A DNA stretch of 27,315 nucleotides, from positions 859 to 28,173 of the forward strand of contig JAGLBH010000002.1 of assembly GCA_018260285.1 (NCBI GenBank), in the 5' to 3' direction. Position 1 is the first letter of the stretch; every line of letters starts with the position of its first letter. A program made the translations under genes and the position numbers. This DNA comes from Arthrobacter sp. GTDB taxonomy: Bacteria; Actinomycetota; Actinomycetes; Actinomycetales; Micrococcaceae. Shown in pieces: positions 839 through 15,742 of the stretch. Below the pieces are notes generated by a model, which was not told the DNA's origin, ran no database searches, and saw nothing but the letters and a program-made list of their open reading frames with translations.

Positions 839-1000
839 CTGCTATCCACCCCCGGTTTCTCGGGGGTGCCTGCCATCCACCCCCGGTTTCTTGGGAGCCC
901 TCCGCCGTCCGCCCCCGAGTTCTCGGGTGTACCAGCGCTACACCCCCGCTTATTCCCTATACCCCCGGAAATTCGAGGGGTGTATGGAATGAGCGGGGGT
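839..1000. repeat. Phased palindrome array, copy A
   Basis: CCCCC anchors begin at 849, 880, 912 and 943, a spacing of 31, 32 and 31 bases. Unit 1 is a perfect 8-bp stem, CACCCCCG at 847-854 against CGGGGGTG at 861-868, with loop GTTTCT. Unit 2 at 878-897 keeps the left arm and TTTCT core but its right arm has decayed to TTGGGAG. Unit 3 at 911-928 reads GCCCCCGAGTTCTCGGGT. Units 1 and 2 also share the bases before them (CTGCYATCC). Unit 4 is the left arm of the long hairpin at 939-1000. The array fills the gap between the convergent ends of sua5 and the glycosyltransferase-SDR gene. There is no cas gene, the spacers are only about 12 bases, and no T-run follows. The same arrangement recurs near 15041. 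Confidence 0.85.
942..1000. repeat. Long imperfect hairpin closing array A
   Basis: ACCCCCGCT at 942-950 pairs perfectly with AGCGGGGGT at 992-1000. The helix continues through 951-965 against 977-991 with one mismatch (957/985) and two G-T wobbles, leaving an 11-base tip that contains GAAATTC. The 62-base element 939-1000 is matched base for base, without gaps, by 15131-15192 (about 52 of 62 identical). It does not end in a T-run on either strand, so a classical intrinsic terminator is unlikely. Confidence 0.85.
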
Positions 1001-1034
1001 TCAAGCGGGCAGCAGCCTTCACAGGAGTCAGCGC

Positions 1035-3053
1035 CTACCTGCCCGCGGACCTGAGCATCTCATGGATATCACTCGGCCCAGCAAGCACGTGAGCTCGGGG
1101 CCATTCATCTGCCTGCGACTGTCCGAACCAGAGCAGATCCAGCCTCCGGGAGACAGCCGCCGATCGCTGCCCCAGCGCCCCGGGCAGTCGAGCGGCGAGG
1201 CTCCCGGCCTTCACCGCAAGGCATCCAGCCCATCGAGGCAGCCGCAGGGGGCGTCCGGAATGTCCGCCGCGAGCAGCCTCCAGAGCTGTCCGTGTCGTGG
1301 CGCCCTCCCACGGCTGGAGGACGACCGGCGGCACAGGCCGTCCGGCGGCGAGGTCCTCTGCCAGCCCGACAGTGAGGCGGGCGAGCGAAGTGACGCTGGT
1401 CAGCGGCGTCGGGCTGTCAGAGGCCCAGCTGGCCCAGGGACTTCGAGCGAGGCGGACGAACCGCTCGGTGGTCCGGCGCCCCGGGCCCTGAACGCTCGTG
1501 GCGCGGAGAATGCAGAAGGTCCCGCCCGCCTGGCGCACACGCTCTTCACCCTCTGCTTTGGAGCGAGAGTAGTCAGAGAACGGGCGGGGCGGGGCAGCCG
1601 CACTGAGCCGACCAGCCCCGAGCACTGCGGCGCTGCTCAGATGGACAAGGGGCACAGGAGGAACGGAGGCTGCACAGGCGTCGGCGAGCAGCCCAGGAAG
1701 AACCGCGTTAGCCCCGAAGAGAGCCGCCTTCTGCGCCCCGTCGGGACTCGCCAGCCCTGCTGCATTGACCACCGCGTCCGCGCTCTTGAGGGCGGAGAGG
1801 AGAGCGTCGGGGAGTGCCGACTGCTCGAGGGCATCCGCAGCGAGCCGCGGCGCAGCCCACGGCTGAACGCGGTGTCCTCGCCGCTCTGCCTCCGTTCTGA
1901 CCGCGCTCCCGACAAACCCCGAGGCGCCGAGGAGCAGGATGCTCAGAGCAGCCGGGGGCTCTTCCTGCCGTGCCTCAGCCGCCGAGGGCCGCGGAGCGGT
2001 CTGCAGGGGCAGTGGCCGCAGGCTGAGCCGAGCCCCGTCTTTCAGGCCGGCACCCACTGCCCTGAGAGACTTGACCGCTGAGCGGCCCGCAGCTGTCGCT
2101 CCGCCGGAGCTCATGGCTCCCGGCATCTCCACGAGAGCAGTGCGCACAAGCTCCTTGGCCGCGGTGAGGGCTGTGCCCGCCGCGAAGGCGAAGGGGCTCA
2201 GCTCTCCCTCTCGCTCGATGTACCCCTTCATGAGGGCCCGGTTCCTCACGGTGTAGTAGCGGGAGAGGTCCGAGGAGTCGTTGAGATGGCGCACAGCCAG
2301 GCTCACGCTCTTCTGGGAGCGGGTCTTCCGCAGGAGCGGCTCGTCGCACACCACCACCCGCACGCGGCGGGATGCGAGGTAGCCGTAGGTCGTGTCATCC
2401 GAGGCGATGAAGAACTGGGCGTCGGGAAGCCCCACGAGCTCCACCGTCCGCGCGGAGATGAGCGCTCCCTCGAAGCAGGCCACGTTGGTCTCGGTCACGG
2501 GGGCGCTGCGCTGCGGCTCGGGGAGAGGCAGGTGGATTCCTGTCGCCGGGTCCAGGCGATGCCTCCAGAAGAAGTCCGTGCCGTCGGGATTGATCCGCTG
2601 GCCGTGGATGACGTCCGCTGTCAGGCCGCGCTTGCAGAGGCGGGCCAGTGCGCCGTCGAGCACCTCGACGTCGTCGTCCATGACCCAGGCCCAGCGCTCC
2701 GAGACCGGCACGGGGATGAGCGATTCATCCGAGAGCGCCGCGGCGATGCCCGCTCGGAAACCGCCCGCGCCCCCCAGATTCTCCGGCTGGCGGATCACCC
2801 TGAGGGGGATCTCGCGCCCCTCCCGTCCGTGCAGCTCCGGGCCGAGGGACGCAAGGAACTCGCCGGTGCCGTCGCTGCTCGCGTTGTCCACGACGACGAC
2901 GCCGCCCGCCCCAGAGGAGTCCTGCTCGATGGAGGCGATGAGCCGTCTGAGCAGAGGCAGCCGATTGAAGGTCGTGATGACGATGACCGCCGAGGCCGGG
3001 GAGGGGGAGGGCGATCCGGCATAGGGTGCGGTCAGCGGTCGGGGGAAAGCCAT
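1035..3053 (-). CDS. Family-2 glycosyltransferase fused to an SDR/NAD-dependent epimerase-like domain
   Basis: Residues about 22-300 are a GT-A glycosyltransferase of the GlfT2/rhamnosyltransferase type (COG1216-like). They carry VIVITTFNR (23-31), VVVDNASSDGTG, the glycine-rich NLGGAGGF (92-99), the metal-binding Asp triad in WVMDDDVE (126-128) and a second acidic site SDD (218-220). A linker of about 60 residues leads to an extended SDR domain (about 370-672) with the nucleotide-binding motif GASGFVGSA (376-384), VVNAAG, the Ser-containing HLSSAA (471-476) and the YxxxK pair Y495/K499. Both catalytic sets look intact. The likely role is adding galactofuranose or rhamnose to a surface glycan, with the SDR domain acting on a nucleotide sugar; both substrates are inference. 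It starts 15 bases after the 3069-3995 gene and probably shares its operon. The weak SD is AAAGGGG. Confidence 0.85.
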   Translation of the reverse strand: MAFPRPLTAPYAGSPSPSPASAVIVITTFNRLPLLRRLIASIEQDSSGAGGVVVVDNASSDGTGEFLASLGPELHGREGREIPLRVIRQPENLGGAGGFRAGIAAALSDESLIPVPVSERWAWVMDDDVEVLDGALARLCKRGLTADVIHGQRINPDGTDFFWRHRLDPATGIHLPLPEPQRSAPVTETNVACFEGALISARTVELVGLPDAQFFIASDDTTYGYLASRRVRVVVCDEPLLRKTRSQKSVSLAVRHLNDSSDLSRYYTVRNRALMKGYIEREGELSPFAFAAGTALTAAKELVRTALVEMPGAMSSGGATAAGRSAVKSLRAVGAGLKDGARLSLRPLPLQTAPRPSAAEARQEEPPAALSILLLGASGFVGSAVRTEAERRGHRVQPWAAPRLAADALEQSALPDALLSALKSADAVVNAAGLASPDGAQKAALFGANAVLPGLLADACAASVPPVPLVHLSSAAVLGAGRLSAAAPPRPFSDYSRSKAEGEERVRQAGGTFCILRATSVQGPGRRTTERFVRLARSPWASWASDSPTPLTSVTSLARLTVGLAEDLAAGRPVPPVVLQPWEGATTRTALEAARGGHSGRPLRLPRWAGCLAVKAGSLAARLPGALGQRSAAVSRRLDLLWFGQSQADEWPRAHVLAGPSDIHEMLRSAGR

Positions 3054-3068
3054 GGAGGGATCCCCTTT

Positions 3069-3995
3069 CTACTCAGAGGGGGAGCGGAAGCCCCGGCCCG
3101 CGAGGCCCTCGCCGAAGGCCTTGGCCCAGGCCCGGAACCCGGGGAGATCGCGCTGCCGGGCGAAGTGCAGGGGGTAGCCCACCGCATCGGCCACGAAGGA
3201 CTTGGGGCGCAGATGACGACGGATGAGGTATCCCCGGTTGCGGTAGAAGTGGCCCTTCTTGAAGTCCGTGTCCGGGACGAGCACATGCCAGCGGTTGCCG
3301 ACCACATGCTGCACCTCCGACCAGGCGGAGGGGTGCTGGAGGGCCGTCGACGTCACCGTGCCGAAGGGGATGTGCGCCCGTCGAAGGCGGAGCATGAAGT
3401 CCGTCTCGTCCCCGCGGATGAAGAGCTTGAGATCCGGCAGGCCTACGCGGAAGAAGACTTCGGAGCGAACGAGGGCGCCGTTGAAGAAGTGGCCCACGCT
3501 CGGCAGGAAGGCGCGCTGCTCCACGGCGGCGCGGCTGAACTCGAGCTCCCCGTCGAGGCGGAATCCGAAGGAGAGGCGGGACGGGTCCTCGGGGGAGACG
3601 ACGAGGGGCAGCACCACGTCCAGTCCGCGCTCGTCCGCCTCGCGCAGAAGGGTCTCGAGGCAGGACGAGTCCTCGGGGCGGGCGTCGTCGTCCATGATCC
3701 ACACCCACTCGGCGCCTGAGGCGAGGGCGTGGAGAATCGCGAGGGAGAATCCGCCGGCGCCGCCGAGGTTGGCCTCGCTGCGGACGACATCCAGCTGCGT
3801 GCTCGCGGTGAGGGCCAGCGCGCGCTCGGCGTTGTCGAGGACATGCTGGGCCGGGCGAGTCCCGGAATCCACAACCGTGATGCGTAGCATGGGATGTGTC
3901 TGCGCGGAGAGCGAGGCAAGCAGAATCCGAAGGTCGTCGGGGCGGTCATACGTCACGACTGCTGCCGCAACGGATCCGGGGGTAAGCTCTGCCAT
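3069..3995 (-). CDS. Family-2 glycosyltransferase, GlfT2/rhamnosyltransferase-like
   Basis: A 308-residue GT-A enzyme paralogous to the N-terminal half of its downstream neighbour. It has AAVVTYDRPD at the start of the fold, NLGGAGGF (77-83), the metal and nucleotide-sugar Asp triad in WIMDDDARP (102-104) and RGDETDF (194-200), a common acidic motif in bacterial galactofuranosyl and rhamnosyl transferases. No signal peptide or membrane span is evident, so it probably works at the cytoplasmic face on a polyprenyl-linked acceptor. It is the first gene of a minus-strand pair and is transcribed divergently from the dehydratase gene at 4129. The sugar cannot be told from sequence alone. Confidence 0.87.
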   Translation of the reverse strand: MAELTPGSVAAAVVTYDRPDDLRILLASLSAQTHPMLRITVVDSGTRPAQHVLDNAERALALTASTQLDVVRSEANLGGAGGFSLAILHALASGAEWVWIMDDDARPEDSSCLETLLREADERGLDVVLPLVVSPEDPSRLSFGFRLDGELEFSRAAVEQRAFLPSVGHFFNGALVRSEVFFRVGLPDLKLFIRGDETDFMLRLRRAHIPFGTVTSTALQHPSAWSEVQHVVGNRWHVLVPDTDFKKGHFYRNRGYLIRRHLRPKSFVADAVGYPLHFARQRDLPGFRAWAKAFGEGLAGRGFRSPSE

Positions 3996-14583: not shown

Positions 14584-14889
14584 ATGGCAGCGAAGGAACT
14601 CCACGTCGAGATCGTCGCGCCTGATTCCAACGTCTGGTCGGGTCCTGCAAGCCTCGTGCGCGTGCGCACCATCGAGGGTGAGATCGGCGTCATGCCGGGC
14701 CACACACCGCTGCTCGCCGTTCTCGGCGAGGGCGAGCTCTCGGTTTCAGGAGCCAATGGCGATCGCCAGCACTTCTTCGCCTCGGGCGGCTTCATGTCGG
14801 TTGAGGGTGACACAGGCCGCGTGATTATCGTGGCTGATGACATCCGCACCGCTGATGCTCCCGCTGCGTCACCCGTGACTGCAGCGTAA
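14584..14889 (+). CDS. atpC: ATP synthase F1 subunit epsilon, short form
   Basis: A 101-residue subunit that couples gamma to the c-ring. The N-terminal beta-sandwich is intact (ELHVEIVAPDSNVWSG, EGEIGVMPGHTPLLAVLGEGEL). After about residue 85 only a short Ala/Pro-rich end remains in place of the two C-terminal helices used for inhibition in the roughly 139-residue E. coli protein. It starts 2 bases after the atpD stop, so translation is probably coupled. It is the last gene of the operon. Confidence 0.95.
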   Translation: MAAKELHVEIVAPDSNVWSGPASLVRVRTIEGEIGVMPGHTPLLAVLGEGELSVSGANGDRQHFFASGGFMSVEGDTGRVIIVADDIRTADAPAASPVTAA

Positions 14890-14892
14890 GGC

Positions 14893-14967
14893 ACCCTCTC
14901 TTCACCCTCCGCAGGAGGGGAGAGGCAGGGGCCGCTGAAGACCTTCAGGGTTTTCAGCGGCCCCTTT
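14893..14967 (+). terminator. Intrinsic terminator of the atp operon
   Basis: GGGGCCGCTGAA at 14928-14939 pairs perfectly with TTCAGCGGCCCC at 14953-14964, followed by TTTGTG. Just before it, CCTCTC..CCCTCC pairs with GGAGGG..GAGAGG (about 14895-14925), a second hairpin directly after the atpC stop. Confidence 0.85.
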
Positions 14968-15010
14968 GTGCGTGTTCGTAGTCGCTGCGAGTGCATGGGT
15001 GTTGCATCGC

Positions 15011-15194
15011 TCCCCAGGCTCTCGAGCCCGGCCTACAGGACCCCCGGATTCTCGGGGGCGCGTTGACTAGACCCCCGGATTCTCGGGGGCACAGCGCGCA
15101 ACACCCCCACATTCTCGGGAGTGTTCTCCCTACACCCCCGCTCATTCCATACACCCCTGAAAATTCAAGGGGTATATGGAATTGCCGGGGGTGT
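15011..15194. repeat. Phased palindrome array, copy B
   Basis: CCCCC anchors begin at 15041, 15072, 15104 and 15135, again 31, 32 and 31 bases apart as in copy A. Units 1 and 2 are identical over CCCCCGGATTCTCGGGGG (15041-15058 and 15072-15089). Unit 3 is CCCCCACATTCTCGGG within an ACAC/GTGT frame (15101-15124). Unit 4 opens the long hairpin. A decayed unit, CCCCAGGCTCTCGAGCC, may precede them at 15012. The array lies between the convergent ends of atpC and the cold-shock gene. Confidence 0.87.
15132..15194. repeat. Long imperfect hairpin closing array B
   Basis: ACACCCCCG at 15132-15140 pairs with CGGGGGTGT at 15186-15194. After a three-base internal loop, 15144-15158 pairs with 15168-15182 with one mismatch at 15152/15174. 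The nine-base tip contains GAAAATTC. The 62-base core 15131-15192 aligns without gaps to 939-1000. No T-run follows on either strand. Confidence 0.87.
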
Positions 15195-15460
15195 TTGTGA
15201 TTCTGCTAGCCCTGCAAGGCCACTCGCTTGGCTTGAGAGCCCTTCTGATGCCCAGAGAAGACGCATTAGCTCTCACACCAGGACCTCTCGCGAGGAGCAG
15301 CGCACCTCATGCATTCAGGACGGGGATATGTGGGGCGCTCTCCGGGCTAGCAGACCGGTCAGGAGCGGAGCAGCATCAAGGGGAGCAGCGTCAGCCCCAG
15401 GCCGGCTGGACGACTTCCGCCCGCTTGCCGAGGTGGCTCCCTGGCCAGACCCCTGACATG
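15195..15460. other. Intergenic stretch without a recognisable gene
   Basis: No open frame here has convincing coding character or a ribosome-binding site. The only structure seen is a 10-bp inverted pair, CTGCTAGCCC at 15203-15212 and GGGCTAGCAG at 15344-15353, far apart and possibly due to chance. Confidence 0.5.
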
Positions 15461-15463
15461 AAG

Positions 15464-15497
15464 AAAGGGCCTGTATCCCTGAGGATACAAGCCCTTT
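15464..15497 (-). terminator. Intrinsic terminator of the cold-shock gene
   Basis: On the minus strand the stem runs from 15497 to 15483 against 15478 to 15464, loop 4 bases, ending in TTT. The one imperfect pair (15471/15490) is a G-U wobble in the minus-strand RNA but a C-A mismatch in the plus-strand RNA, so the structure favours the csp transcript. It begins about 40 bases after the csp stop. It may act in both directions. Confidence 0.85.
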
Positions 15498-15538
15498 CGA
15501 GTGCTTCGCGGTCACGCCGCGGAGTGAATCTCTAAAGT

Positions 15539-15742
15539 TTAGAGGGGGGAAACGCCGGTGGCCTGGGGGCCCTTGGCGCCTTCGCCGATTTCGAAGCTCA
15601 CGCGCTGCTCCGGCTCAAGCGTACGGAAACCGTTGCTGGAGATCTCGGAGTAGTGGACGAAAACGTCATCGTTCGAGCCATCCGGGGTGATGAATCCAAA
15701 ACCCTTTTCAGCGTTGAACCATTTCACAGTGCCTTCAGCCAT
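15539..15742 (-). CDS. Cold-shock domain protein (CspA family)
   Basis: A 67-residue single cold-shock domain that binds single-stranded nucleic acid as an RNA chaperone. It has [11 protein letters not shown], which includes RNP1 (KGFGFI), and RNP2 (VFVHYSEI), then [22 protein letters not shown] typical of the family. AAGGAG lies 7 bases before the ATG. It is monocistronic, with its own promoter and terminator. Confidence 0.97.

Follow-up and report, generated by a model that had tools for sequence, protein, structure and literature searches.

The intergenic arrays described here belong to a genuine, geometrically rigid element that is present in many copies and whose class occurs, among the genomes searched, in one bacterial family: a palindrome of fixed length from which arrays of short anchor sites extend at steps of 31 or 32 bp. 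They most likely represent phased double-stranded sites for a putative protein. Our favored, though tentative, interpretation (probability roughly 45%) is that of a family-specific, REP-like extragenic palindrome that has been extended in this genome into helically phased arrays and is probably bound by such a protein.

The window (the whole stretch of Arthrobacter sp. DNA that was analyzed, 27,315 nucleotides) contains two copies of the element, copy A at 849-1003 and copy B at 15041-15195, each made up of three anchors and a 65-bp palindrome (Table 1). The anchors are 18-bp pseudo-palindromes, about CCCCCGGWTTCTCGGGGG, near CCCCCGG[AT]TTCTCGGGGG. Copy A (848-1000) and copy B lie 14,192 bp apart and align without a gap (74% over 153 nt). 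The first-pass annotation had described copy B as a second array with the 31/32/31 spacing of copy A, ending like it in a long hairpin, differing from it in spacer bases and lying, as copy A does, between convergent genes. The description is borne out: both arrays are real and run into the 65-bp palindrome, spacer letters vary at constant spacing and orientation, and the flanking genes converge at both sites. Only the placing of four anchors, at 15041, 15072, 15104 and 15135, needs amendment: the first three are anchors, whereas 15135 marks the palindrome's outer CCCCC box. The 31/32/31 order that both copies have is no more than one of the ways in which 31s and 32s can combine.

Table 1. Positions in the window of the two copies of the element and of the features flanking copy B
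Feature	Position	Strand	Remarks
Anchor 1, copy A	849..866	+	
Anchor 2, copy A	880..897	+	+31
Anchor 3, copy A	912..929	+	+32
65-bp palindrome, copy A	939..1003	+	outer box at 943, +31
ATP synthase epsilon gene (atpC), left neighbor of copy B	14584..14889	+	Pfam PF02823, gene caller
Ordinary stem-loop with trailing TTT, distinct from the element, just 3' of atpC	14928..14967	+	by eye
Anchor 1, copy B	15041..15058	+	CCCCCGGATTCTCGGGGG
Anchor 2, copy B	15072..15089	+	+31 from anchor 1
Anchor 3, copy B	15104..15121	+	+32 from anchor 2; degenerate, CCCCCACATTCTCGGGAG
65-bp palindrome, copy B	15131..15195	+	outer C-box at 15135, 31 bp from anchor 3
Ordinary stem-loop 3' of the cold-shock gene, distinct from the element	15463..15499	-	by eye
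Cold-shock protein gene, right convergent neighbor of copy B	15539..15742	-	Pfam PF00313, gene caller

The stretch of copy B is predicted to fold better than 200 of 200 shuffled versions (z -7.4). No Rfam family matches the window at gathering score, and a terminator scan, which requires five T in eight, lists nothing at copy A or copy B and neither of the two stem-loops near copy B. Separately, a minus-strand frame at 1035-3053 of the window combines a family 2 glycosyltransferase with NAD-dependent epimerase/RmlD domains, a fusion that seemed unusual.

The genome is a 1.98-Mb draft in 395 contigs, 82% complete, and a blastn search with copy B as query yields 66 matches in it. A covariance model (R1), derived from a gap-free alignment of 38 palindromes of this genome, finds at least 42 full-length palindromes, every one of them 65 bp long; the count is a lower bound, 150 of 685 candidates having been scored. 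Two fragments of 33 bases also matched R1; the first lies at the end of a contig, the second next to N. Anchors were collected with an iterated position matrix that never used spacing, run on 242,914 bases surrounding the copies; it returned 192 sites, 40 within palindromes and 152 outside. Same-strand neighbors are separated by 31 (27 cases), 32 (61), 42 (3, in a single array), 63 (3) or 72 bp (1), so that 88 of 95 gaps are 31 or 32 bp; five neighboring pairs lie on opposite strands. The first-pass annotation had named an absence of further copies, or variable anchor distances, as findings that would tell against the element; the 42 full copies and the 88 of 95 gaps support instead what it proposed, a dispersed unit with rigid geometry.

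The arrays are also directional. Of the 43 anchors that lie nearest a palindrome, 41 are oriented toward it and two face away, and within 230 bp of a palindrome 125 anchors point toward it and 13 do not, the 13 including anchors of neighboring palindromes. Walking outward from the 42 palindromes in steps of 31 or 32 gathers 113 anchors in runs of 0 to 7. The commonest form has three anchors on a single side (11 of 42 palindromes); five palindromes are flanked on both sides and six have no anchor. At one further locus (L039, 3890-4114) an anchor array starts ~45 bp past a tRNA-Gly gene (3890-3963) and reaches the contig end. At another (L025), arrays at 1884-2102 and 2312-2467 have two identical spacers in common and nearly identical palindromes, and are either a recent local array duplication or an assembly duplicate.

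The sequence between the anchors bears on how this geometry is kept. Three or fewer of seven compared bases are shared in 36 of 55 adjacent spacer pairs, and adjacent spacers differ in length in 23 of 55, one-base differences being frequent and larger ones rare. Because the spacers are heavily substituted and their length stays within one base, the comparison would point to selection on spacer length. A step of 31.5 bp corresponds to three helical turns, and 42 and 63 bp to four and six; the other repeated gaps in the arrays, 42 and 63, are therefore also multiples of 10.5, with few events beyond 31/32 and the 42-bp gap counting as one event because all three examples lie in one array. Tandem duplication of a fixed unit likewise yields a constant period, and some arrays have plainly grown in this way, since spacers are more alike within than between arrays (45% versus 32% agreement at compared bases). 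The first-pass annotation had offered selection on geometry, or dispersal as a unit followed by divergence, as the two causes of constant spacing; the data fit a mixture of them.

It had also held that palindromes are what is conserved. That view needs qualifying, since in this genome the arms overall do not covary. Among 38 copies and 31 possible pairs, 81.7% of cells pair, versus 82.4% in shuffles, and eight pairs have changed on both sides, versus 10.6 in shuffles. Pairing exceeds chance at 4/62, 13/53 and 14/52 (p 0.012, 0.031 and 0.030), and pairs 11/55 and 12/54 lean likewise toward pairing (p 0.08 and 0.07), all uncorrected over 20 tests; there is thus a weak local excess at four adjacent pairs, columns 11-14 with 55-52, at p 0.03 to 0.08 each. 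Because the arms overall show no covariation, it is the symmetric words rather than base pairing that seem to be kept. The center of the palindrome carries a conserved break in symmetry: columns 28/38, the innermost C-G position, are T-G in 22 copies, C-A in 10, T-A in five and G-G in one, and never C-G in the 38. Relative to the array, this asymmetry can run either way (20 versus 9 in palindromes that have an array and a clear direction). In this genome, the pattern fits half-sites that are read as double-stranded sequence around an asymmetric center, and an absence of arm covariation is what such reading would be expected to produce.

Thirteen palindromes of relatives (12 from g19 and one from g10) behave differently. 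In these, which were collected by a model that rewards pairing, 92.9% of cells are paired versus 78.2% in shuffles, and 14 of 25 pairs have changed on both sides, a number reached in none of 500 shuffles. This covariation fits a folded strand, or correction of one arm by the other, better than it fits independent half-sites; arm-to-arm correction through template switching could generate it without selection. Of the 84 palindrome ends of this genome, two have TTT nearby; the corresponding figures are 5 of 26 in g19 and 7 of 30 in g3.

Gene contexts were assigned with a home-made gene caller. None of the 42 palindromes of this genome lies inside a called gene; 21 are between tandem genes, 10 between convergent genes (three of these in one gap), two between divergent genes and nine at contig edges, against a baseline, for all gene pairs in the same loci, of 101 tandem, 24 convergent and 25 divergent. 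The 62 sites of relatives divide into 26 convergent, 26 tandem, five divergent, two at edges and three within called genes (baseline 39 convergent, 90 tandem and 32 divergent). Convergent sites make up 14 of 24 in g19 and 10 of 22 in g3; in G001, a genome of the same genus, nine of 11 further sites are convergent, and all 15 sites comprise nine convergent, four tandem and two divergent. Convergent 3' ends, at which the first-pass annotation had proposed a test for enrichment, are consequently not the rule (10 of 42 sites here, 26 of 62 in relatives); the rule is extragenic and rarely divergent placement. REPs are described similarly in passages of PMC3733652, as extragenic, in unidirectional and convergent positions and rarely divergent ones. 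A Pfam tally of the neighbors covers 104 of 118 proteins (seven from the window and seven others were left out, and four of the seven from the window were scanned separately). There is no transposase family among the commonest 25 of the 145 Pfam families found, which look ordinary; a single transposase could lie among the remaining families.

Relatives of the element share its plan and differ in its words. The core is a palindrome of ~64-69 bp in which one short word is used four times: a CCC word, its repetition in identical or similar form after 19-20 bases, the center, and then both words inverted. The word is about TNCACCCCC in this species and GTTTGCCCCC in G001; most g19 copies have TTCACCC[AC]C; the g3 genomes G205, G328 and G181 have GTACCCCGG, and G153, also g3, has ACCCCCTC; g11 has TTTGCCC. 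Both g3 words occur in G235 (g3), in one copy apiece, so that a single word per lineage is a tendency rather than a rule. Homology across genera is read from the plan and the CCC boxes, not from overall sequence. At E 1e-3, R1 matches 38 of the family's 395 genomes, spread over 15 of 32 genera; across the phylum it matches one of 296, which is this genome. A second model (R2), for which ten genomes supplied 32 palindromes, finds 37 of 395 at E 1e-5 (11 of 32 genera), the ten and this genome among them, and phylum-wide again one of 296, its own genome. Palindromes of this plan are confined, in the genomes searched, to one family, the Micrococcaceae. The family is assigned from NucS: among 80 named relatives the nearest is that of Arthrobacter sp. 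UM1, at 83% identity, and the top-ranking ones are mostly Micrococcaceae. Copy numbers in relatives are lower bounds, 13 to 17 candidates having been scored per genome, and weak single model matches may be ordinary terminators. On 80 named NucS loci R1 gives three weak matches (E 0.002 to 0.045), none convincing: a short 30-base stem-loop matched on both strands in L068, and one match in L093.

The phased array has a narrower distribution than the palindrome. The exact two-anchor pattern has 35 matches in this genome, none in 58 other relative genomes and none in an 84,980-species collection, from which this genome and others very close to it may be missing. Arm-like repeats within 180 bp, a measure that misses anchors unlike the arm, as happens in this window, occur at 4 of 15 G001 sites, at steps near 30, 40, 50, 60 and 81, and at one of 58 sites of other relatives (versus one of 62 in the control stretch). 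The three-turn step thus recurs in the sister species G001, alongside other steps. A different palindrome, of 62 bp (CAACTNGCTCGCATTTGTTGTCGTT...), was seen in the Arthrobacter genomes G417 and G418 at L077 7608-7671 and L083 7605-7668, at both loci just downstream of what by eye resembles a cold-shock gene; it has at least 77 and 75 matches, respectively, over both strands of these genomes (40 candidates scored in each). In open-licence PubMed Central, the letter strings of these repeats and of the 62-bp palindrome led to no paper.

Copy B was compared with the corresponding sites in two genomes of the same genus, G001 and G002. In both, a DUF2550 gene (PF10739) lies between atpC and the cold-shock gene, and there is no palindrome of this kind at the site. 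Since the corresponding sites in both relatives are without one, copy B either is new here, rather than ancestral at the site, or was lost twice. The DUF2550 gene is apparently absent from the window, where no resembling frame was seen by eye at 14889-15539; the element fills the gap. Conversely, one G001 palindrome is beside a gene homologous to one in locus L017, where, by eye, this genome has none. PF01797, the Y1/RAYT transposase family, is absent from this genome (82% complete), from G001 and from G002, and altogether from 10 of the 11 genomes tested, including this one, the single-contig G001, G069 and G112; the sole match is in G328. A phage or plasmid source was considered and set aside: the two-anchor pattern has no match in viral contigs, and blastn against plasmids and phages finds nothing at E 1e-5.

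The reading of the element as a palindrome with phased protein sites is supported directly by its copy number, its fixed length, the 31/32 spacing that persists through changing spacers, its orientation and its extragenic placement; relatives built from other words are restricted to particular lineages. Mechanistically, the palindrome would seed outward arrays of 18-bp pseudo-palindromes in 31/32-bp steps, each aimed back at it. A putative DNA-binding protein would read the words from a single face of the helix, 31.5 bp being three turns, loading at the palindrome and then extending along the array, and the resulting compact nucleoprotein block, placed downstream of genes, might affect transcription that crosses gene ends, mRNA 3' ends or local supercoiling. 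The divergence of words between species would follow if the palindromes co-evolve with their reader or mobilizer and new variants are re-amplified. The stronger version of this proposal, a new family-specific DNA-binding protein that forms a directional barrier at gene ends and co-evolves with lineage words, is on balance rather unlikely; if true, it would constitute a bacterial site-plus-reader system of fast-changing specificity in which each lineage has a word of its own.

It is quite possible that the element is instead a selfish REP-like repeat without present function, its palindromes copied by some enzyme and its arrays lengthened by slippage or unequal exchange, with the period no more than the length of the copied unit. 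Species-specific words, a species-specific position at the single site compared, the location of several arrays at contig ends, ordinary neighbors among the families shown, and shared spacers in some arrays (three nearly identical ones in L009, and the same spacers in the two arrays of L025) are all in keeping with such a repeat; what it explains poorly is that spacers have mostly diverged while 88 of 95 gaps are still 31 or 32, since an unconstrained length should have drifted further, and that 42 of 42 palindromes are still 65 bp long. A bidirectional intrinsic terminator, or a hairpin of RNA 3' ends between gene ends, is an improbable account. The strong predicted fold (z -7.4), the closeness to stop codons, the often convergent sites of relatives (14 of 24 in g19, 10 of 22 in g3, 9 of 15 in G001) and the arm covariation in g19 all speak for it, but TTT is found near just 2 of 84 ends here (g19 and g3 have more, at 5 of 26 and 7 of 30), overall arm covariation is absent in this genome, 21 of 42 sites are tandem, and no Rfam family matches at gathering score. 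Moreover, atpC and the cold-shock gene, by eye, each have a stem-loop of their own next to copy B, and an ordinary terminator needs neither a repeated word nor phased arrays.

A site for gyrase or a nucleoid protein, like E. coli BIME-2, that eases positive supercoils at gene ends is very unlikely. It would suit the small number of divergent sites (2 of 42), and passages of PMC1525189 report binding of gyrase, IHF and DNA polymerase I to REPs, which are also frequent between convergent genes; gyrase, however, is conserved, whereas the words differ even among species of one genus. Least credible of all is a classical REP/REPIN mobilized by a RAYT (Y1 transposase). Dispersed extragenic palindromes in unidirectional and convergent positions would be in line with it, REPs being placed in this manner according to passages of PMC3733652; against it stand the absence of PF01797 from this genome (82% complete) and from 10 of 11 tested overall, and the scarcity of tags, GTAG being found shortly 5' of six of 152 anchors and CGTC of five. 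Because in this genome there is little covariation and hardly any U-tract, and no Y1 transposase was found, the RNA hairpin, the intrinsic terminator and the classical REP/REPIN fit the element poorly.

Several known systems share parts of this design. The spacers do not match those of a CRISPR array, being 13-14 bp in 88 of 95 gaps (versus about 25-40 bp) and in some cases repeated within arrays. Bidirectional intrinsic terminators have a comparable strong hairpin near stop codons, and the palindromes of relatives often share with them a place between convergent genes; the element differs in its repeated words and its arrays and, in this genome, in its nearly absent U-tract and its lack of overall arm covariation. 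Integron attC sites have four boxes in inverted order near stop codons, as the palindrome does, but its boxes are spaced 19-20 bp apart and no cassette arrays were seen. Paired NrdR boxes, ~31 bp apart, exemplify phased regulator boxes and are likewise palindromic sites separated by three helical turns; the present arrays, in contrast, lie away from promoters, extend to seven units per side, recur at dozens of loci and use lineage-specific words.

Dispersed bacterial palindromes are usually ascribed to Y1 transposases and single-stranded hairpins. Here, one bacterial family has a common palindrome plan with interchangeable words and no Y1 transposase in most genomes tested, and one species has three-turn arrays aimed at the palindrome. 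The combination helps to tell whether double-stranded geometry or folding is under selection, and renders the question of what reads and spreads actinobacterial extragenic palindromes experimentally approachable.

The closest likeness is to REP, BIME and REPIN elements, which are also short extragenic palindromes in many copies, of species-specific sequence, clustered, with few divergent sites and with inverted pairs that form long hairpins. The element is a dispersed, high-copy extragenic palindrome as REPs are (42 full copies, none in called genes). The GTAG/CGTC tag is inconsistent: on the 3' side of the 152 anchors, CGTC occurs at three and GTAG at none, and GTAG at 20 of 84 palindrome 3' ends is the consensus GTA with a flanking G, on the opposite side from that in REPs. 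With regard to the REPIN, in which a pair of inverted REPs makes up one long hairpin, the 65-bp palindrome has two inverted half-elements, but each half consists of two direct words, not of one REP palindrome. No Y1 transposase was found in this genome (G000), in G001 or in eight of nine others tested. Because of the tag and the transposase, the element is not filed as a REP despite its REP/BIME-like lifestyle; it is filed as a dispersed extragenic palindrome, a variant distinct from REP, which is set apart by its fixed 65-bp length, its four-word plan, its palindrome-directed phased arrays and its restriction, in the genomes searched, to one family.
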